Shown here: positions 13,230 through 37,907 of the stretch, piece after piece | Numbering within the stretch: position 1 is the stretch's first letter | Layout: each line of letters opens with the position of its first letter | IMG/VR virus record: IMGVR_UViG_3300037189_014142 | Location: 1 to 42,243 of that record | DNA: 42,243 bases | Source of the DNA: a virus | Reading direction: 5' to 3' (one strand) | Translations under genes and position numbers: made by a program | Notes under the pieces: model-generated | Told to the model about the DNA's origin: nothing | What the model saw: the letters and a program-made list of their open reading frames with translations, nothing else | Databases searched by the model: none

Positions 13230-14104
13230 CAGAAATTAAGCCCCATTCTATATTCAATATCTGCTGGTCTTCCAGCCTTCTTTTCTAAAGTTGATGTTAA
13301 AACAGAACGTGCAATTAGTCCAAATCTTGGGTCAAATGTATCTTCATCATTAATTCTCAATCCATCTAAGTAAACAGTTGTGGCTCCAGTGCTCTTAGCA
13401 GTTACTTCTATTCCAACCTTTGTGATTGATGTTAAGTCTGGAGTTCCATAGGTTGCAAGAGACCCTACGCTAACACTCTTTATGTTTTCCCCAATGGTTG
13501 TGAGACCATTTAAAGTTGCATATAAGTAGCTTGTGTCTGAACTATAAAATTTAATTTTAATCGATGAAACATTTGTGTCTGCCTGATTAAATGCCAAAGT
13601 AACTGTATCATTTGTACTATATCCAGACATATTAAATGAGTCATATTTTGATTTGTATTCTTTGCTTGAAGAGGATGGCGCCTGTACCTTAAACATTGTT
13701 GCACCAATTCTTGGAGAAGGTGTGCTTACAATTTCTGGATTAATTTCATTTTCATCTACCCAAACTAAATTATTCTCAAAGTCTGAAATAAATTTGCTAT
13801 CAAAGTTATTTATAGAATCTCTTGATGAAGGGTAAAGACCAATTTCAGTAATTTTTCCAGCAACATCTTGTGGCAGAGTTGTTTTATAAACTACTGCATA
13901 CGTACTGTCTCCATTTTCATCTGTTTGAATATCAATAGTTCCTAGTGTTACTGGAAGTCTATAGAATTCAAAACCAAGCCTTGTATCGTTTCCGCTTGTA
14001 TTTGCAGCAGTTGAATCAATGCCTACTGCAAGGTCTTGTGCGGGAAATCTTACATTGCCAGCCAAGTATTGTGCTAAAAATCTTTTTCCAAATTTAGTTA
14101 TCAT
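13229..14104 (-). CDS. Tail baseplate/fibre attachment protein
   Basis: A 291-residue protein. The N-terminus (F-G-K-R-F-L-A-Q-Y-L-A-G) and residues 25-80 (L-A-V-G-I, then R-L-G-F-E-F-Y-R-L-P-V) follow a pattern seen in phage proteins that link fibres to the baseplate. Residues 130-255 look like a beta-sandwich domain with alternating strands (T-L-A-F-N, I-K-I-K-F-Y-S-S, T-T-V-Y-L-D-G-L), similar to carbohydrate-binding folds. The ATG overlaps the preceding stop (ATGA). The role is inferred from place and pattern. Confidence 0.6.
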   Translation of the reverse strand: MITKFGKRFLAQYLAGNVRFPAQDLAVGIDSTAANTSGNDTRLGFEFYRLPVTLGTIDIQTDENGDSTYAVVYKTTLPQDVAGKITEIGLYPSSRDSINNFDSKFISDFENNLVWVDENEINPEIVSTPSPRIGATMFKVQAPSSSSKEYKSKYDSFNMSGYSTNDTVTLAFNQADTNVSSIKIKFYSSDTSYLYATLNGLTTIGENIKSVSVGSLATYGTPDLTSITKVGIEVTAKSTGATTVYLDGLRINDEDTFDPRFGLIARSVLTSTLEKKAGRPADIEYRMGLNF

Positions 14105-14541
14105 TGTTTTGGCACCAGCGCATTCAGTCCTACGACTTGTCTTCCAGTTGAATTATGCACTCTGAATGTTACATTAATTCTTGGTGGGGTAACGCTGAAA
14201 TCAACCTCCTGGCTTTTTATTTGTATATCTGAAAGATCTGGCGGAAAACCAACTACAGTAATAGTGTAATCTGATTTTTCTGTATCTGGTTTATCCCATG
14301 GATTAGGTGGAGGATCTCCTGGACCTGGGTCTGGCCCTGGGCCTGGCCCTGGGTTACCGCTGCTTCCACCAAGCGACTCACCACTACCCCAGTATGAATC
14401 TCCGCCATAATTTTTTAATTTTCCTGAACCAACTATTCTAACAAATAGTGGATCAAGATCTACTAATTCTGGGGAGCCTTCAACAAGGAATATCGGAGCA
14501 TTTTTTCCGACTTCATTACTGGAGATATTTTCTTTGGCCAT
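14101..14541 (-). CDS. Proline/glycine-linker tail protein
   Basis: A 146-residue protein with three parts: an N-terminal segment (about 1-60), a P-G-P-G-P-D-P-G-P-G-D-P-P linker (about 67-83) and a C-terminal beta domain (88-146). The proline/glycine hinge suggests a flexible connector between the hub and a fibre. There is no Shine-Dalgarno site; instead a -10 element lies 6 bases before ATG (see the promoter entry), suggesting leaderless translation. Function unknown. Confidence 0.7.
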   Translation of the reverse strand: MAKENISSNEVGKNAPIFLVEGSPELVDLDPLFVRIVGSGKLKNYGGDSYWGSGESLGGSSGNPGPGPGPDPGPGDPPPNPWDKPDTEKSDYTITVVGFPPDLSDIQIKSQEVDFSVTPPRINVTFRVHNSTGRQVVGLNALVPKQ

Positions 14542-14547
14542 TTTTTT

Positions 14548-14556
14548 ATTATACCA
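14548..14556 (-). promoter_or_regulatory. Leaderless extended -10 promoter
   Basis: On the minus strand TGG is followed by TATAAT (14548-14553), six A and then the ATG of the proline-linker gene. A transcript starting about 7 bases after the -10 would begin at the ATG itself, and the gene has no ribosome site. No convincing -35 is present. Nearly the same string precedes the gene at 33791. Confidence 0.55.
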
Positions 14557-14557
14557 T

Positions 14558-15958
14558 TTATGAGCTATAAATAGATCTAGCTGTCAATTCGGTACTTAAT
14601 CCTTCCCCCCATGATTGAGTTACATTAGTTACTACAAATTTTTGAGTTCCGTCTAACCCATTAAATGGATAATTTACAGACACCACATCTCCAATTGAAA
14701 TAAGTGGGTTTGCAAAAGTTCTAATTTTTATTACACTTTGCTTATTTTTCCACTGATTTGTAATCCAATCATAAAGATTTTTAGCATCATCTATTTTTTG
14801 AATCCATTGAGAGTCAAAAGAAACTGGCTCAACTGGTGAGTATGGATCTGATGTTTCTTCTGTATATGTAAGTGGGCTAGACTGGACAACACTGTTTCCA
14901 ATAATTGCAAATGAAGTGCCAGCAGAATCATCTAGTGGAACATAAGTTCCAGAATTATTTAAAACATACATCTCTCCAGTAAATGTTGAAAGGTTTGAAG
15001 CAATAACAGATACAGCTTGATTTACCCCAGTTGTTGCATATTTAGGGTAAGCTGGAGTTGCATCATATCTTACCTTTACAGTTCTTATCTCTCTTGCAAC
15101 TGGACCAAACTCTTCTATATAGCCTTTATCTGTTTGTTCAACCTTTCCAATTCCAGTGACAAAAAGATCTCCATATGAATTTGTTACAGCAGTATTTGCA
15201 AACTGTCTTTTATAAACATTAAATAACTCTGCATTATCATACTGATCTTTTGTAATTGGAATTGCATAGGCATAATCAAAAGAAGCTGAACCTTGTCTTG
15301 CATAGATTCCAATTATTCCAGTTGTAGGCAGCTTGGCTATAGTAGAAGTGGTTCCCGCTGCCGTATATTTTGTACCACTATCTGATGCTGTAATTTTAAA
15401 TCCATTAACATAGCCAACAAACTCAACTTTGTTTGTAGACACTTTTACATAAACGTCTATCTTATATGCAGATCCGCCATACACTGCAGTTAACTTCTGA
15501 GCATCTTTTACTCCCTGAGAGTCTTCTAATTGAGTTATGTTACCCTTATATACCTTTAAGAACTTAAATTCATTACCGCCTTGCGCTGCTGCAGTAGATG
15601 TAGTTCTAATTTGAACGTAATATCCAGTTGCTCCAGCTCCGCTAATAAAGAATCCCAACCCAGCATTTTGTTTTAAATCCTCAAGCGTGGGTTTAAAAAA
15701 CATTGTTGTTCCAAAAGCATAATACTGGCTTTCTGTTGAGATTTGTGTTGCCTTTGAAATAATTGAAACAGTGCTATCTGATTGATCAGTATTTACTGTT
15801 AGCAAGGACCTTTCTACTGTGAAGGCTTTATCTATTTCATAAGAAGCAATTTCTTCAACTCCATCATATGATGCTGAAGAAGTATCAGCTACTCCATATG
15901 AACCAGTAGAACTATATCCTGCGTAACCGCCATCTAGTACATCCCATGCTACTCCCAT
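14558..15958 (-). CDS. Tail hub-associated minor tail protein with LamG-like insert
   Basis: A 466-residue protein. Residues about 45-240 look like a concanavalin/LamG-type jelly roll (G-L-G-F-F-I-S-G, Y-Y-V-Q-I-R-T-T, G-I-I-G-I-Y-A-R). The C-terminal 60 residues (N-P-L-I-S-I-G-D-V-V-S-V-N-Y, F-V-V-T-N-V-T-Q-S-W, then L-T-A-R-S-I) have the look of the last domain of phage tail-hub (Tal/gp27-like) proteins. The start is ATG 15958, overlapping the previous stop as TAATG; an in-frame GTG at 15967 is less likely. With the preceding gene it may form a hub made of two chains. Confidence 0.65.
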   Translation of the reverse strand: MGVAWDVLDGGYAGYSSTGSYGVADTSSASYDGVEEIASYEIDKAFTVERSLLTVNTDQSDSTVSIISKATQISTESQYYAFGTTMFFKPTLEDLKQNAGLGFFISGAGATGYYVQIRTTSTAAAQGGNEFKFLKVYKGNITQLEDSQGVKDAQKLTAVYGGSAYKIDVYVKVSTNKVEFVGYVNGFKITASDSGTKYTAAGTTSTIAKLPTTGIIGIYARQGSASFDYAYAIPITKDQYDNAELFNVYKRQFANTAVTNSYGDLFVTGIGKVEQTDKGYIEEFGPVAREIRTVKVRYDATPAYPKYATTGVNQAVSVIASNLSTFTGEMYVLNNSGTYVPLDDSAGTSFAIIGNSVVQSSPLTYTEETSDPYSPVEPVSFDSQWIQKIDDAKNLYDWITNQWKNKQSVIKIRTFANPLISIGDVVSVNYPFNGLDGTQKFVVTNVTQSWGEGLSTELTARSIYSS

Positions 15959-30479: not shown

Positions 30480-31022
30480 TTAATTTAGAATGTCGTTCAC
30501 GGAACCGAGGAAAGCGCCGCTCCATTTTGATTTCTTTACAAACTCTGTTGACCCGCCAAGGTCAGCAGACTTCTTGATTGCAGTCTCGCCCTCTACTGCG
30601 TCGATTCTCTTTTCTACTGAACCGATTGTTTCACGAATACCCTTTACGGTCTCGCTTAAATTATTGTGCTGTTCTGCCAAATCGACGATTCTTGCTTCAA
30701 CACTCTTGCTAAAGGACTCCACAGTGTTTTTAACTTCTGCAACCTGTGCTGCATTTGTTTCTGCTGCCTTGCTAAGTGTATCGGACAAGAAGCCCTTAAG
30801 GTCCCCTAGCATCTTTGCAAAATCAAGCTCTTCTGAAGCTGCTTCTGCTGCTGGTTCTCCTGCGGTATCGGCGGCAACTGAATCCTCAGCTGGTGCTGAT
30901 TCTTCTGCAACTGCTGGCGCCTCTTCTGCTGCTGGTGCTTCTGCTACTGGAGCTTCTGCCACTGCTTCTGCGACTGGTGCATCAACTGTTGTTTCTTCTG
31001 TCATTGTTGTTTCTTCTGACAT
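30480..31022 (-). CDS. Nested in-frame scaffold protein
   Basis: From an internal ATG (Met263 of the protease-scaffold) the same frame gives a 180-residue acidic Ala/Glu-rich protein with a C-terminal coiled coil, a typical scaffold composition. An ideal AAAGGAGGT site, coding Lys-Gly-Gly, lies 6 bases before the ATG. The layout repeats the lambda C/Nu3 arrangement, where free scaffold outnumbers the protease fusion. Evidence is the ribosome site plus the domain border; expression is inferred. Confidence 0.75.
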   Translation of the reverse strand: MSEETTMTEETTVDAPVAEAVAEAPVAEAPAAEEAPAVAEESAPAEDSVAADTAGEPAAEAASEELDFAKMLGDLKGFLSDTLSKAAETNAAQVAEVKNTVESFSKSVEARIVDLAEQHNNLSETVKGIRETIGSVEKRIDAVEGETAIKKSADLGGSTEFVKKSKWSGAFLGSVNDILN

Positions 31023-31808
31023 TGTTGTACCTCCTTTATTTACTTCGGTGTTGTTTTCAAGTTCATTTGCAGAACTAGAAATCTTATTTACATGCTGTTC
31101 GTATACATAACGAACTGCGTCCGCCTTATTAACTTCATTGTTTTCAACCCATCCAATGATCTCCATTGAATTGCCGCATGCTGTGCAATCACGAGATTCA
31201 AGAACTTCTGAAACAACAATATTGTCTGCTTCACAGAAAAATACATTTGCCGCCATAGTTTCTGCTGCAAGACCTTTAAATACCAATTGACCATTTACCT
31301 TTTCAATTGAAAGAACATTGCAAAGTTCATTTGCTGGAGAATCAACAAGAGACAATTCAACAAGGTCGTAATCCTTAATGAATCTTACAGACTCACCGTT
31401 TGACTTGTTTACTTCTGTGTCTGCATCATTAATTCTTCCGCCAATAGAAAAACCAGAAAGAGTGCCATCAAGCACTTTCTCCCAAGTTGCTTGTGCACCC
31501 TTTGAAATGTATGTACTCACCCAAATTCCATCATAGAATGATTTTGAGATTGGATCAAAGAAAGTCTCTGACTTAAATGACAAAATCTTGCCTACGGCAA
31601 TTGGCTGATGCATTTCACGAATGTTGCCTCTAAAGTTTTCAAACGCTTTAAGGCTCGCTTCCGCTGTGACAACATCGCCTGTTTGGTCTACATTGTTTAA
31701 TGTAGCAAAACCTGAAACAGTTCTATTTTCCTTATTGACCTTACTGAAAGGGACGCCAATAGACAGGCGATTTCCCTTACTTGACCAATTTGTTTTTTCA
31801 ATGTTCAT
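30480..31808 (-). CDS. Prohead protease fused to scaffold
   Basis: A 442-residue protein. Residues 1-175 are an HK97-type (S78/XkdF-like) prohead protease: G-F-A-T-L-N-N-V-D-Q-T-G-D (33-45), the probable catalytic His67 in E-M-H-Q, Ser121 in S-G-F-S-I-G-G, and L-V-E-L-S-L-V-D-S-P-A-N (149-160). Residues 190-225 hold a small possible metal knuckle (Cys192, Cys208, Cys211). Residues 263-340 are Ala/Glu/Pro rich and 340-425 form a coiled coil, as in scaffold proteins. It cuts itself and the scaffold after prohead assembly. No ribosome site is seen at ATG 31808; a near-leaderless promoter is possible. Confidence 0.88.
   Translation of the reverse strand: MNIEKTNWSSKGNRLSIGVPFSKVNKENRTVSGFATLNNVDQTGDVVTAEASLKAFENFRGNIREMHQPIAVGKILSFKSETFFDPISKSFYDGIWVSTYISKGAQATWEKVLDGTLSGFSIGGRINDADTEVNKSNGESVRFIKDYDLVELSLVDSPANELCNVLSIEKVNGQLVFKGLAAETMAANVFFCEADNIVVSEVLESRDCTACGNSMEIIGWVENNEVNKADAVRYVYEQHVNKISSSANELENNTEVNKGGTTMSEETTMTEETTVDAPVAEAVAEAPVAEAPAAEEAPAVAEESAPAEDSVAADTAGEPAAEAASEELDFAKMLGDLKGFLSDTLSKAAETNAAQVAEVKNTVESFSKSVEARIVDLAEQHNNLSETVKGIRETIGSVEKRIDAVEGETAIKKSADLGGSTEFVKKSKWSGAFLGSVNDILN
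31029..31037 (-). promoter_or_regulatory. Internal ribosome binding site for scaffold
   Basis: AAAGGAGGT, one of the strongest Shine-Dalgarno sites in the window, lies inside the protease-scaffold frame with ATG 6 bases downstream. The protease's own start has none, so initiation here should exceed that of the full-length protein. Confidence 0.75.
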
Positions 31809-31817
31809 ACTGTATAA

Positions 31818-31846
31818 AGTTTATCAATCTGTGCTTAAAAAGGCAA
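31818..31846 (-). promoter_or_regulatory. Candidate near-leaderless promoter for the protease gene
   Basis: TTGCCT (31841-31846), 17 bp ending in TGA, then TAAACT (31818-31823). The -10 ends 9 bases before ATG, giving a leader of two or three bases, and the gene has no Shine-Dalgarno site. Both hexamers are only 4 of 6 to consensus. Confidence 0.4.
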
Positions 31847-31866: not shown

Positions 31867-33459
31867 TTACTCTACTTGCCTTCCGTCGCCTTTTGCATTT
31901 CTACCTTCTCCAGATTTATCTGGGGAATTTGCTGCTCTTTCTCCATCTCTGGCTCTAGTCTTTCCAGCCTGAGCTGTTTGCTCTGCAGCAGCTTCACCCT
32001 TTAAATCTACGACTTCGTCTCCTCCGTCTAGAGGGATCATACCCTTTCTAATTCTAACTTCATTAGGGGTAATAACCTGCATTCTCAAATATCTTTCATC
32101 AATCTTAGACTGAGTATCTTCATCAGTAAGGCTGAGTTCATTAAATTTAATTACTAGAGCATCTGTCTTTTCTTCAATAATTGCATTTAATTTCTTCTCA
32201 AGTCTCATCTGTGCTGGACGGCAAACCTGCTCTTTAAATGTTTTATCCGCATCACGAGCTACTGCTAAATTAACTCCCTCTGGAGTTCCAACCTTATTAA
32301 TTGGAACACGGTGAGCCAATAGCATTTCATCTCTATTTGCCTTACGGTATTTATCAAATGAGCCTTCCTGTGTTCCAGCTTCAATTGGCTCCATCTTAAA
32401 TTCAACCTTAGATTCTGGAGTATCTGCTGGAAGAGGAATATAAAGGGATCTGTGGTTCTTTCCTTTAAGACCTACCTGGAAAAATTCTAGAAGCTTTCTT
32501 TCTGATTCTGGTGAAAGCTTTGCTCCCTTTGCTGTAATAATATATCTTGGGACCGCCTTGTTTTCAAAGTAGTCCAGGTTGTACTTTGCAGCAAATTCAT
32601 TTCCAGCTAAAGAGTTCTGAGCTGCAACAATATCTGGCACTCCGTAATACTGATTTACTGGCGTATACTTCTTTAGGTGAATAATTTCGTTAGGTCTGTC
32701 ATTTCCACCCAAAATTGGATTAGGGGTTTCTTGGTCTCCGTAATTTCTAAAGAAAACAATCTTTCCAAAAAGAAGCTGAACAAAACCATCTCTTAGTCTG
32801 CGGACTCGCATTGTCTTTGCGGGGATATGACCAATGTATCCAATATCTCCACGAACAGTTCTACCAACTTCTAAATAGCCGTTACCTGTTGCTTCATAAT
32901 CTGTCCAGACCTTGATCAAAGTCTCCTGGAATGTGTCTTCGCTGTTGCACTGATCTAGCCAGTCCTGAAGATCTTGCTTAAGCTTTGAAAGCTTTCTACG
33001 TGCTCTTTCCAACTGCTTGTCATCGCTAATTCCATCAAGAGCGTCGTTTGTTTTTCTTGTTTCTAAAAATTGATATCCTAGACCAACAATATTTGAGGTC
33101 TTAGCATTACATGCTGCATAATTATATGTAGAAATTTCATAAAGTCTTGATAGATATTCTAGGTTATATACTGGTTCAATAACATCAAGGAATGCGTATC
33201 CTGTGATTGCTTGTGCTAAAAGGCTCTGCTGTGTTTCCGCCCCATCTTTTCCAGTAAAAGCTTTTGACAACTCTCTGCTAAGTTTACGTCTAAATGCTGG
33301 AGACATTCCAGACATCTTCTGCATCTCTTCTGCAGAAATCTTAAACTCGTCTGGGGATCCAGACTCTTGAGCTTTTGTAAATCGAACCATATCAGCATAT
33401 GTGCTTAATCTGATTTCGTTGTCTAAAGACTCTGTATCTTCTTCGTATTGAGCTTTCAT
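31867..33459 (-). CDS. Portal protein
   Basis: A 530-residue protein of the PBSX/SPP1-like portal superfamily. Motifs: I-S-T-Y-N-Y-A-A-C-N-A-K (wing), Y-Y-G-V-P-D-I-V-A-A-Q-N-S-L-A-G (about 265-280) and F-E-N-K-A-V-P-R-Y-I-I (about 292-302), which are typical of portals, then E-E-K in the clip/crown. The last 50 residues are charged and unstructured, with Gln/Arg/Gly. Twelve copies form the DNA channel at one capsid vertex. The start overlaps the preceding stop (ATGA) with AAGGCAGG upstream. Confidence 0.9.
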   Translation of the reverse strand: MKAQYEEDTESLDNEIRLSTYADMVRFTKAQESGSPDEFKISAEEMQKMSGMSPAFRRKLSRELSKAFTGKDGAETQQSLLAQAITGYAFLDVIEPVYNLEYLSRLYEISTYNYAACNAKTSNIVGLGYQFLETRKTNDALDGISDDKQLERARRKLSKLKQDLQDWLDQCNSEDTFQETLIKVWTDYEATGNGYLEVGRTVRGDIGYIGHIPAKTMRVRRLRDGFVQLLFGKIVFFRNYGDQETPNPILGGNDRPNEIIHLKKYTPVNQYYGVPDIVAAQNSLAGNEFAAKYNLDYFENKAVPRYIITAKGAKLSPESERKLLEFFQVGLKGKNHRSLYIPLPADTPESKVEFKMEPIEAGTQEGSFDKYRKANRDEMLLAHRVPINKVGTPEGVNLAVARDADKTFKEQVCRPAQMRLEKKLNAIIEEKTDALVIKFNELSLTDEDTQSKIDERYLRMQVITPNEVRIRKGMIPLDGGDEVVDLKGEAAAEQTAQAGKTRARDGERAANSPDKSGEGRNAKGDGRQVE

Positions 33460-33791
33460 CGGTTGCCTGCCTTTTTCATTTCATCTTTATAGACACCAAT
33501 ATCTAGCTGGTCTGGGACCAGTCCCCATTCAAGTCTTTGCTTTTGATATTCAAACTCTTCGTCATCAATCTTTCTGCGACCAGAAAGAAATTTTGGCTGA
33601 CCCTCATAGATTCCAAAAGATCGGACTTCTCTAGCAAGCATGTCCATCTTTACACGGTTGCCCTTCATTGATGTTACAGAAAGAAAGTTTCCATCGTCAT
33701 CACCAATCCAGCGACCATCTGGCATTTCCCATACGTAAATTCCCAAGGTCGTCTCTTCGATGACCTGCTTTTTCATGCTTTTAATGTCCAT
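33456..33791 (-). CDS. Small protein upstream of portal
   Basis: A 111-residue charged protein of unknown function, with a beta-rich middle (G-I-Y-V-W-E-M-P-D-G-R-W-I-G-D-D, then F-L-S-V-T-S) and a helical basic C-terminus. It is coupled to the portal gene by an ATGA overlap. There is no Shine-Dalgarno site; a -10 element lies 6 bases before the ATG, as for the gene at 14541. It may be a head-assembly or DNA-packaging accessory, inferred only from position. Confidence 0.7.
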   Translation of the reverse strand: MDIKSMKKQVIEETTLGIYVWEMPDGRWIGDDDGNFLSVTSMKGNRVKMDMLAREVRSFGIYEGQPKFLSGRRKIDDEEFEYQKQRLEWGLVPDQLDIGVYKDEMKKAGNR

Positions 33792-33797
33792 TGTTTT

Positions 33798-33806
33798 ATT
33801 TTACCA
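33798..33806 (-). promoter_or_regulatory. Leaderless extended -10 promoter of the head operon
   Basis: TGG then TAAAAT (33798-33803), AAAACA and ATG. The 22 bases from AAATGG to ATGG differ from the 14541 site in only two positions. A transcript would start at the ATG, which lacks a ribosome site. The 60-base gap upstream also holds other AT-rich -10-like strings, so the exact start is uncertain. Confidence 0.55.
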
Positions 33807-33851
33807 TTTCATGTTATATAAGTCCATATCTTGTCAACCAAAATGACAAAA

Positions 33852-35606
33852 TTAGGCACTTGAGACTATTAAATAGTCTTGATTGTATGTTGATACTGAA
33901 GATTCTGTCAGCTGCATTGACGAATCTGAGACTGATACCGCTGGTTTTCCACAATATAGGTTATAGTGGTTTAAAATCATTGGCTCTAAAACCTCATACT
34001 TATACAAAGCAATATTTTGATAATTGCAGGCTGGACCAAAATTGGATGAGGATGTGTAGTTAAATTGAAGATCATTTAAAACAGGCCCTACAAAAACAAT
34101 AAATACATGGTGTGGCTCTCCAACAACAAATTCATTTTTAAGGTTTGTAGACCCAGTCTTATCTACTCCGTTTACATAAACCTTAGATATATTAGATTTA
34201 ACAGACCCAGAATTAGTCCAGCCTAGTTTTACTTCTGGATATGAGCCAGACGGACCACAATAAAAAATTGTATTGTCTGAAACAGAAGATGGGGTAAACA
34301 TAAACTCCACAGATCGCACTTCTTGGTCTACTGCAACCTTGAAGCCTCCAGTACCTTTTGTCTTAATTCCAACATTTGGATGTCTAATTAAAACTGGGTA
34401 GCTAAAGTTGGCAAAATCATATTCTTTATTTGATTCTGCATAGTATCCATAGTTATGGGCATACAACTCTTTTTTTGAATAGAATGAAATCTTAAACAAA
34501 GATAACCTTGGCAAATCTTTTGAAGTATCTTGGCTAGACATTGCTATTCTTAAATAAACAATATTTTCTCCAGTGTAGGACTCTTTGTTAAATTGTGGAA
34601 GAGATGATCCATTTGTGCAGGACTCATAGGTAATTCCATCTAAAGATGTTTCAACAGATATATTTTTATCTCCCCGCCATTCTACTTTAGAAGAAACAAT
34701 TGGTATCCCAGAAGGAATATGAAAAACATCATTAATTATAAACTCTTTTGATTCTACAGTATTTGTTTGGTTAAATCCTATATACTTTTTCTTTTCATCA
34801 TAGTATGTATTTTCATCTAAAAACAACTGCCATTGAGAATCTTTAGTATATTCATAGACAAATATAGGTGCAATGTTTTGACCATGTAATCCAAGAAGAA
34901 GACCGTCGTCTGGGGCAACAATATGCACTGGCTGGGTGTGGTCTAGTCCAGCGTAATAATGCTTATAGACTTGCATTGCTGAAAGTCCATATCTGTAGAT
35001 AGCTGGAGCATCTATAAGAAAACTATCTGCAGCATTTGTTGTTGGACCAGAAACAAATGAAATTGAAGAATTAGTAAACTTAAAGTTAGATACAGATTTT
35101 GATGTAATCAATCTGCCGTCAATATAAATTTCCATTGTATGCACATTATATTTAGCAACAATATGCATTGCCTTTTCTGAAAAAGAAAGCTTGTGAGTAA
35201 GGGATTCTGAGCCTAGGTTAAAAATTATATTTCCATTTTGATAAAACAATCCAATTAAATTTGTTGAATCTGCAATGATTGGTGTGAGTCCAGAAGTAGT
35301 TATATTTTGTTTAAACCATACCTCTAAAGAAAAATCATTGTCAGAATATTGAGATGTTGCAAATCCGCCATAGCCAGAATTTTTATAAAAATTTTTGTTT
35401 ACAGAATATGAAATAGAAGATGTATTTTTTATCTTTGTGGCAAAAGAGCCTCCATAAACTAAAGGCATTATGTTTGAAGAAAAGGAACCGCTGTAAGATC
35501 CGTGGTTTCCGCATCCAGAAATGTCATTTGCTGTTGTAAATGTAGACTCGTCCAATGGCCAAAAGCCAAGTGGATTATCTTTTATTACATTTAGATAGTA
35601 TGACAT
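33852..35606 (-). CDS. LamG/concanavalin-like adhesin
   Basis: A 584-residue protein. Residues 1-215 are a LamG-type jelly roll: P-L-G-F-W-P-L-D-E (12-20), D-I-S-G-C-G-N-H-G (28-36), F-S-L-E-V-W-F-K (about 91-98) and I-Y-I-D-G-R (about 155-160). Residues 390-545 resemble a second, weaker unit of the same kind (K-V-Y-V-N-G-V-D). Such folds bind glycans or surface proteins, so it probably contacts the host. GGAGAG lies 4 bases before the ATG, and it follows the PASTA protein gene by 9 bases. Confidence 0.75.
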   Translation of the reverse strand: MSYYLNVIKDNPLGFWPLDESTFTTANDISGCGNHGSYSGSFSSNIMPLVYGGSFATKIKNTSSISYSVNKNFYKNSGYGGFATSQYSDNDFSLEVWFKQNITTSGLTPIIADSTNLIGLFYQNGNIIFNLGSESLTHKLSFSEKAMHIVAKYNVHTMEIYIDGRLITSKSVSNFKFTNSSISFVSGPTTNAADSFLIDAPAIYRYGLSAMQVYKHYYAGLDHTQPVHIVAPDDGLLLGLHGQNIAPIFVYEYTKDSQWQLFLDENTYYDEKKKYIGFNQTNTVESKEFIINDVFHIPSGIPIVSSKVEWRGDKNISVETSLDGITYESCTNGSSLPQFNKESYTGENIVYLRIAMSSQDTSKDLPRLSLFKISFYSKKELYAHNYGYYAESNKEYDFANFSYPVLIRHPNVGIKTKGTGGFKVAVDQEVRSVEFMFTPSSVSDNTIFYCGPSGSYPEVKLGWTNSGSVKSNISKVYVNGVDKTGSTNLKNEFVVGEPHHVFIVFVGPVLNDLQFNYTSSSNFGPACNYQNIALYKYEVLEPMILNHYNLYCGKPAVSVSDSSMQLTESSVSTYNQDYLIVSSA

Positions 35607-35615
35607 ATCTCTCCA

Positions 35616-37907
35616 TTATATCGTAATTTGTACAGAAGAACCAGTTATTGAAGTATTGTAGTCTTCATTCCAGCCATAAGCTGTTAATCTATATGTTCCA
35701 GCTGCAATATCTGTTATGTCGTATGAACCAGATACGTTATTTGTAGATTGATCGTATCCAAAATATTGAGCAACTGCATTAGAAACAGAGCCGCCAGAGG
35801 TTGTTTCCAATATCATATAAAGAGCTTCAGTATTAGAACCTTTTGTTGCTGTAAAGTTAATTGCATTTCCAGACTTTGTAACCGTATTTAAAACTGGTGT
35901 TGCAGAAGCAGCAGCCCAAGTGGTAGACAAGACATTGCTGGTTTTTGAACCAGTAGAATACTCGTTGTTATTATTTCCAAATATCTGAATATAATAATTT
36001 GTTCCTGCTGTAAGTCCAGTTATTGAAGTTGACTCTGTTGTAACAATTTTTGTTGTTACATAAGAAGCTGTTCCTGGCTTGTACACACCAATAAAGTAAA
36101 ATGGAGAATCTCCTCCAGACCACCTTATATTAAGCTGAGTTGATTGTCTTGCATTTGTTAGTGCGTAATCAATAGATGTTGGTTGAGCTAATGCTTTAAT
36201 TGGACCATAAGAATTAGTTGCAGAAACATAGGAGCTTGTTCCAACTGCGTTTGTTGCTGCAAGCTTTAACCTTACAGATCTAGAGACCGCTGAAGTTCCA
36301 ACAGTAAACGTTGCTGCTGTGGCATTAATAAAATTATTTCCATTTGTGTCATACCATTGATATGCATATGATGTTGGGCTGTCTGTCCATGATCCAGGAA
36401 CTGCCGCAAACCTTGAACCTACATAAAGATTGTCATACGTAATGCTTGGCAGTACAGTGTTTGTTGGAATGGCAACAGAACCAGTGTAGTCTGAATAATT
36501 AATTGTAATTTGTGTATTAACAAGTGCTGCCGTTCCAGAAACTGGGCTTTGTGCATAAATCTGTTGATAAACTTTATTTGGGTCTGATGTTGTAACATAA
36601 GATATATTTGAATATCCAGCTTGCTGAATTCTAGTTACAGCTTCTGAAAGAGTCAATCCAATAACATTTGGCACAGTTCCATATGATGGAGCGGCTAAAT
36701 ATTGAGTAAAGTCAAGTCTTACGGTTCCTCCACCAGATAATGTTGCGCCTGATGTAGGAGATTGTGCTGTTACATATCCACCAGAATAATCAAGATAAAA
36801 CTGGTTATTTGAAGCAGACACTGTTCCATCTCCATATACATATCCAGACGCAGTAATAATTGATTTTGCCGAGTTTAAAGAAATACCTGTAAGTTCTGGA
36901 ACAATCTGAGTTGTTGAAATCGTTTGAATATTACTTGAGTTTCCATTACCAACAGAGTTGACTGCTCTTAAACCAACTTGAAAAGTTGATCCTGGATTTA
37001 ATGAAGATACTGTAATTGGACCAGTATTTGTAAAATCATTTGTCCAAGTAACTCCATTATCAAGTGTGTGCTGGTATCTAATAATTTCTGTGCCACCGTT
37101 ATTTGTTGGCGGAGTCAAATCAATTCTGAAAGAAGTATTTGTAATAAAAGATACTGTAAATGTTGGTGCTCCTGGCACTGTTAACTGACCTCCACCAGAT
37201 CCACTAGTAGGAGCTTTTGTTACGCCAGCAGAAGAGGCAGAATTTCCTTTAATGTTAACAGCTCTAATATAAAATGTGTAGTTAGCTCCATTTGTTAAAC
37301 CAGAAACTGTAAAAGTATTATTTAAAGGAAGATTTACATTTATCCATGTTGCTCCATTTGTTATAGAATATTCATATCTTGTTATTGCTGAGCCGCCATT
37401 TGCTGGAGTTAAAAATGTTAATGTTACAGAAGAATCACCAGATGTTGCATTTGACCACAAAGGGGCGTTTGGAACTGTGCTATTATCAATTGGTGTTGTT
37501 GTATAAAGAATTACGTCCATTCTAACGCTGGAACCAAAAGCCAATAGTGTTCCTGAAGACAAGGACGGTGCTGGTGCTTGTGCTGCCACATAACCACCTT
37601 GAGCAAGGTACTGTTGAAAACCTATGCTGTTAGAATACACATAGTTTGGATCTGGTGTAAAACCAGCATTTCTTAAAATAAGAGAAGCGGTTTCAAAGTT
37701 AAGGCCAATAAGAGAAGGCACATATCCAAGAAGCTGTCCTGTGCCTGTAGCAATTTTAATGCCAGATCTTTTAATAATCGTGTGAGCATTTACTGAGTTT
37801 AAATTTGTGTATCCATATGTATCTGGATAATTAGTGTTCCAATTAAATATATTTTTAGCTTTTATATTTAGTGTATTTATTACATTTCCATATTGTCTGT
37901 ATGCCAT
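35616..37907 (-). CDS. PASTA and fibronectin III tail adhesin
   Basis: A 763-residue protein with a mixed domain string: PASTA-like 62-135 (V-P-S-L-I-G-L-N-F-E-T-A), fibronectin III 143-235 and 244-333, PASTA-like 335-405 (V-P-E-L-T-G-I-S-L-N-S-A) and 410-478 (V-P-N-V-I-G-L-T-L-S-E-A), an Ig-like domain about 482-575, fibronectin III about 575-668, and a final beta domain. In bacterial kinases and penicillin-binding proteins PASTA domains bind peptidoglycan pieces, so here they may bind the Gram-positive wall. No signal peptide or enzyme motif is present. Confidence 0.75.
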   Translation of the reverse strand: MAYRQYGNVINTLNIKAKNIFNWNTNYPDTYGYTNLNSVNAHTIIKRSGIKIATGTGQLLGYVPSLIGLNFETASLILRNAGFTPDPNYVYSNSIGFQQYLAQGGYVAAQAPAPSLSSGTLLAFGSSVRMDVILYTTTPIDNSTVPNAPLWSNATSGDSSVTLTFLTPANGGSAITRYEYSITNGATWINVNLPLNNTFTVSGLTNGANYTFYIRAVNIKGNSASSAGVTKAPTSGSGGGQLTVPGAPTFTVSFITNTSFRIDLTPPTNNGGTEIIRYQHTLDNGVTWTNDFTNTGPITVSSLNPGSTFQVGLRAVNSVGNGNSSNIQTISTTQIVPELTGISLNSAKSIITASGYVYGDGTVSASNNQFYLDYSGGYVTAQSPTSGATLSGGGTVRLDFTQYLAAPSYGTVPNVIGLTLSEAVTRIQQAGYSNISYVTTSDPNKVYQQIYAQSPVSGTAALVNTQITINYSDYTGSVAIPTNTVLPSITYDNLYVGSRFAAVPGSWTDSPTSYAYQWYDTNGNNFINATAATFTVGTSAVSRSVRLKLAATNAVGTSSYVSATNSYGPIKALAQPTSIDYALTNARQSTQLNIRWSGGDSPFYFIGVYKPGTASYVTTKIVTTESTSITGLTAGTNYYIQIFGNNNNEYSTGSKTSNVLSTTWAAASATPVLNTVTKSGNAINFTATKGSNTEALYMILETTSGGSVSNAVAQYFGYDQSTNNVSGSYDITDIAAGTYRLTAYGWNEDYNTSITGSSVQITI

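Follow-up and report, generated by a model that had tools for sequence, protein, structure and literature searches.

Leaderless genes are well described in actinobacteria, where TA-like signals some 12 bp upstream serve to define them and where they account for >20% of genes (PMC3160421). For mycobacteria, an RTG at +1 has proved both necessary and sufficient (PMC4633059). Among phages, leaderless mRNAs have been predicted for the promoters PL1, PR2 and PL2 of Corndog and Cluster O (PMC4351075), and lambda cI mRNA and E. coli prophage regulators are known examples (PMC4681348). Here we describe two near-identical gene starts, one opening a head operon and one lying among tail genes, in IMG/VR virus record IMGVR_UViG_3300037189_014142, whose 42,243 nucleotides were analysed as a whole (hereafter, the window). 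Their architecture and conservation suggest that sigma-70 promoters are very probably fused to start codons at virion operons, giving rise to leaderless mRNAs (0-2 nt leader).

As in the TA-led genes of actinobacteria and the leaderless transcripts of mycobacteria (PMC3160421; PMC4633059), both starts combine a TANNNT about 12 bp upstream with an ATG and lack a Shine-Dalgarno (SD) sequence. Unlike those genes, they stand at virion-operon starts, and a near-invariant TGGTAWAAT is kept by position across a viral family. The Corndog and Cluster O sites (PMC4351075) are likewise phage leaderless predictions, and Corndog PL2 lies within the structural operon; however, they belong to a different phage cluster, were predicted without a family-wide spacing test, and PL2 serves a leftward gene rather than head or tail genes. 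Lambda cI and the prophage regulators (PMC4681348) are also phage-encoded leaderless mRNAs, but of regulatory genes in a proteobacterium. We found no description of leaderless virion-operon starts in Stanwilliamsviridae, the family of the closest cultured relatives, among the open-access papers searched. With leaderless genes already known in actinobacteria and predicted in mycobacteriophages, the present sites are an unusually well conserved case. The initial annotation had suggested leaderless starts that may be a phage-specific class; "phage-specific" is too strong for an architecture that matches ordinary actinobacterial leaderless genes.

The two starts lie on the minus strand as AAATGGTATAATAAAAAAATGG at 14559-14538 (tail) and AAATGGTAAAATAAAACAATGG at 33809-33788 (head), and share 20 of 22 bases, with mismatches at position 9 (T/A) and position 17 (A/C). 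Allowing ≤3 mismatches, the pattern matches only these two sites in the 42-kb window (0.00 expected; 0 in 100 shuffles). A G+C content of about 38% makes the window AT-rich and might invite a chance match, yet this explanation has next to no probability given the empty shuffles, and it is refuted by conservation of the sites, which recur in ~75 to 80 relatives as well as in phages with a G+C content of 41-50%. Each start has an extended -10 (TGGTAWAAT) separated by exactly 6 nt from its ATG (14541 and 33791), with TGG preceding the hexamer TATAAT at the tail site and TAAAAT at the head site. The extended -10 consensus TGnTATAAT is matched by TGGTATAAT at the tail site and, with one mismatch, by TGGTAAAAT at the head site, and both starts have their TANNNT within the 10-12 bp before the start codon that typifies TA-led genes. 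No SD was found upstream of 14541 or 33791 by anti-SD duplex energy over 20 nt, which was -2.9 kcal/mol at both starts, while most window genes fall between -5 and -15. The 22-base match, the six-base spacing and the missing ribosome site of the initial annotation are thus borne out, as is its "head operon" label, since the phrog_9394 gene directly precedes the portal gene. Only the extended -10, the A-rich spacer and ATGG are common to both sites. As allowed for sigma-70 promoters, in which a -35 is dispensable or set at a 16-18 bp spacer, none is conserved at the tail site and TGGACT-N17 is present at the head site. TTGACA, which precedes each -10 box by 28 bp, was considered as a shared -35 and rejected as coincidence; it is not conserved at the tail site (TTAGTA in relative L083, TTAACA in L084), and its head-site copy overlaps with one arm of a dyad (Table 1).

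A motif search in relatives had been set beforehand as a check on the proposal, and the motif was recovered at both genes in essentially every relative. With tail loci anchored on the downstream tail gene, TGGTATAAT (79) or TGATATAAT (1) precedes the ATG of the orthologue in all 80 environmental loci, at a spacing of 6 nt in 73, 7 in 4, 8 in 2 and 5 in 1. Among the 59 unique sequences, AAATGGTATAAT is invariant or near-invariant and no conserved -35 was found. The promoter outlives the protein sequence here, because the box is kept while proteins of distant orthologues drop to 16-28% identity. Further support comes from cultured phages: GATATAAT-N6-ATG precedes the tail gene in 6/6 Streptomyces phages, some of which also show TTGACT at a distance of 17 bp upstream. 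The counterpart in Rhodococcus phage Dorin is TGATACTAT-N6-ATG.

At the head gene, an extended -10 lies 6-9 nt before the ATG in 74 of 75 alignable environmental relatives, the sole exception being anchored at a different start. The box reads TGGTA.... in these 74, apart from two with TGATA...., and the spacer is 8 nt in 58, 9 in 11, 7 in 3 and 6 in 2. TGGACTT, followed by N13, is near-invariant and places the -35 at 17 bp. A -10-N6-7-ATG arrangement was also present in eight Streptomyces phages, as TATAAT-N7-ATG (Gilson, Belfort, TunaTartare), TACAAT-N6-ATG (Wakanda, Circinus), TATGAT-N6-ATG (Coruscant, StarPlatinum) or TAAGAT-N6-ATG (NootNoot), and in two Rhodococcus phages (Peregrin, TGTTATAAT-N6-ATG; NiceHouse, TGGTACAAT-N6-ATG). 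Gilson, TunaTartare, StarPlatinum and Coruscant (Stanwilliamsviridae), together with Peregrin, NiceHouse and Dorin, share the gene order and -10-N6/7-ATG with the window, but differ in the flanks (dyad, TGGACTT), and the records consulted for them make no mention of leaderless status.

The preferred spacing extends beyond these two genes. Across the window and ten large environmental relatives, with the mean over distances 10-60 as background, an ORF start follows TATAAT at 6 nt 51 times vs a mean of 7.7, and TGNTAWAAT 29 times vs 3.0. The corresponding TATAAT counts are 18 vs 1.0 in four Streptomyces phages and 8 vs 0.5 in two Rhodococcus phages; nominal Poisson P values (~1e-7 to 1e-25) overstate significance, as homologous sites are counted repeatedly. 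The 6-nt sites are spread over many unrelated gene families, and a consensus -35 is present at some of them and replaced by an extended -10 at others, with both in only 1/57. Together, the motif in relatives and cultured phages and the genome-wide peak at 6 nt support reading these sites as leaderless starts.

The likely host is actinobacterial, because the closest cultured relatives are Stanwilliamsviridae phages of Streptomyces (portal ~60% identical) and Rhodococcus phages, and because a portal relative occurs in an Actinomycetota metagenome-assembled genome (MAG). This fits the actinobacterial setting first suggested. Two short MAG contigs matched in all, the other being assigned to Cytophagaceae and probably misbinned. 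A phage-encoded sigma factor was considered and set aside: no Sigma70_r2 gene was found in 10 relatives, and two Sigma70_r4 matches were sub-threshold. With no phage sigma factor above the cut-off, the host primary sigma factor is the likely reader of these promoters.

From the architecture and its conservation we infer the following course of transcription and translation. Host RNA polymerase with the primary sigma factor would recognise the extended -10 (TGGTAWAAT), assisted at the head operon by the -35 TGGACT. Bacterial RNA polymerase initiates ~7 nt past the -10, so that a 6-nt spacer would put the RNA start at the A of the ATG. The mRNA would then open with AUG and be translated without an SD, as is common in actinobacteria. 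In spacers longer than 6 nt, positions 7 onward are mostly pyrimidines (in the 8-nt head group, C in 21/26, then T in 26/26), which would leave the A of the ATG as the first good initiating purine and is consistent with selection for initiation there.

Several observations weigh against this scheme. Most head-gene orthologues have spacers of 8 or 9 nt and the protease site of the window has 9 nt, so a leader of 1-3 nt is possible; just 16 nt separate the tail gene from the upstream stop codon (TAA), so reinitiation on a long transcript is possible; and the host assignment draws on relatives and one Actinomycetota MAG contig only. The first of these would suit real promoters that give mRNAs with minimal leaders of 1-5 nt, if not everywhere then at the head and protease genes, where many orthologues have 7-9 nt spacers and where the 9-nt head group has an A at position 8 that could give a 2-nt leader. 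We regard such leaders as possible though on balance unlikely, given the exact 6 nt at 73/80 tail sites, the pyrimidine filling of lengthened spacers, and the lower initiation efficiency in mycobacteria when RTG stands at +2 to +5 instead of +1 (PMC4633059). The short gap at the tail gene, within a unidirectional gene block, would also fit termination-reinitiation on a polycistronic mRNA with no promoter at all and with the A-rich stretch as a weak SD-independent translation enhancer. This appears highly improbable: the invariance centres on TGGTATAAT and not on the A-rich part, cultured Streptomyces phages keep TATAAT-N6-ATG despite longer gaps (~30-54 nt) and have a -35 at 17 bp, and Boydwoodruffvirinae have a strong intrinsic terminator ahead of the head-gene box, at the place of the dyad.

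Table 1. Predicted promoters, associated elements and genes in the window.
Feature	Position	Strand	Basis
Tail-operon leaderless promoter/start (predicted), AAATGG-TATAAT-AAAAAA-ATGG	14538..14559	-	Pattern search; invariant AAATGGTATAAT in relatives
-10 hexamer TATAAT, TG extension 14556-14555, without conserved -35	14548..14553	-	Sequence and relatives
Gene with predicted leaderless start, 146-aa fast-evolving tail-cluster protein	14101..14541	-	
Head-operon leaderless promoter/start (predicted), AAATGG-TAAAAT-AAAACA-ATGG	33788..33809	-	Pattern search and relatives
-10 hexamer TAAAAT, TG extension 33806-33805	33798..33803	-	Sequence and relatives
-35 element TGGACT, 17-bp spacer; TGGACTT near-invariant in relatives	33821..33826	-	Sequence and relatives
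Dyad TTTTGTCA-N7-TGACAAGA, centre ~-50; candidate operator or weak terminator of upstream gene	33829..33851	-	
phrog_9394 gene, opens head operon, directly before portal	33456..33791	-	
Portal protein gene	31867..33459	-	
Third promoter (predicted), TTGCCT-N17-TAAACT-9 nt-ATG, before prohead protease gene	31809..31846	-	Comparison with relatives
Prohead protease gene, near-leaderless start (predicted), without SD, ATG 31808	30480..31808	-	
TATAAT-GGAGAGAT-ATG before phrog_11584 gene (33852-35606, ATG 35606)	35607..35620	-	

Further sites of this type were found in the window (Table 1), whose main genes all run leftwards. The phrog_9394 gene is followed by genes for the portal, the head maturation protease and a virion structural protein. 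At the protease gene, most relatives have a 7-nt spacer (TAAAATTAAGCATATG), a -10-like box lies 6 nt from the ATG in Gilson, TunaTartare, Coruscant and StarPlatinum, and the -35 TTGCCT is kept from environmental relatives to Streptomyces phages. The phrog_11584 start (TATAATGGAGAGATATG) has TATAAT 8 nt before the ATG and an SD-like GGAGAG abutting the -10, so that this SD would precede or coincide with the transcription start; orthologues have spacers of 6-9 nt, and some have no SD and a spacer cut to 6-7 nt. Up to four virion units may accordingly be headed by a fusion of -10 and start codon. Separate transcription units would be opened at the phrog_11584 gene, phrog_9394-portal, protease-capsid and the distal tail genes, and virion genes would be re-promoted along the long leftward block. 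The other window promoters (before 6297, 25326 and 29310) have space enough for an SD-bearing leader.

For a large actinobacteriophage family with cultured members, these sites provide predicted precise starts of transcription and translation at about four virion operons, and a natural set for asking why phages retain leaderless starts. A broader reading would place leaderless mRNAs systematically at the head of virion operons throughout a family of large actinobacteriophages, as a late-expression programme; it is speculative and seems unlikely. If it were true, SD-less initiation independent of free 30S subunits would keep virion proteins being made under remodelled or shut-down host translation, and virion genes would stay poorly translated from read-through mRNA. 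SD-based gene callers may misplace such starts, and two annotated head-gene starts that are off the conserved -10-N6-ATG are likely misannotated: for StarPlatinum gp48 the likely true ATG is 15 nt upstream, and for NootNoot gp42 it is 6 nt downstream, both in frame.

The 146-aa product of the tail gene had no PHROG or Pfam match. Its gene is flanked by those of a minor tail protein and the phrog_9983 tail protein, neighbours that are the same in the relatives examined, and its middle is rich in proline and glycine.

The head-site dyad takes the form TTGTCA-N7-TGACAA, centred near -50, in most environmental relatives, and its arms covary in some (TTGTCC/GGACAA, TTGTAC/GTACAA). The exact form TTGTCA-N5-8-TGACAA lies at the head promoter of the window and of 7/10 relatives; one of the others has no copy, and in two the only copy is elsewhere. 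A role as genome-wide operator was rejected, as this form occurs about once per contig and thus defines no regulon.

Among the other 6-nt sites, the phrog_9507 gene starts with TTGACA-N17-TATAAT-N6-ATG (L105:10080-10160 and orthologues in relatives). The spacer of this promoter contains a palindrome (TTTTAGTTGACTAAAA / TAGTCGACTA) that is probably a repressor operator, and GTTGAC/GTCGAC words like those of the palindrome recur near other promoters.
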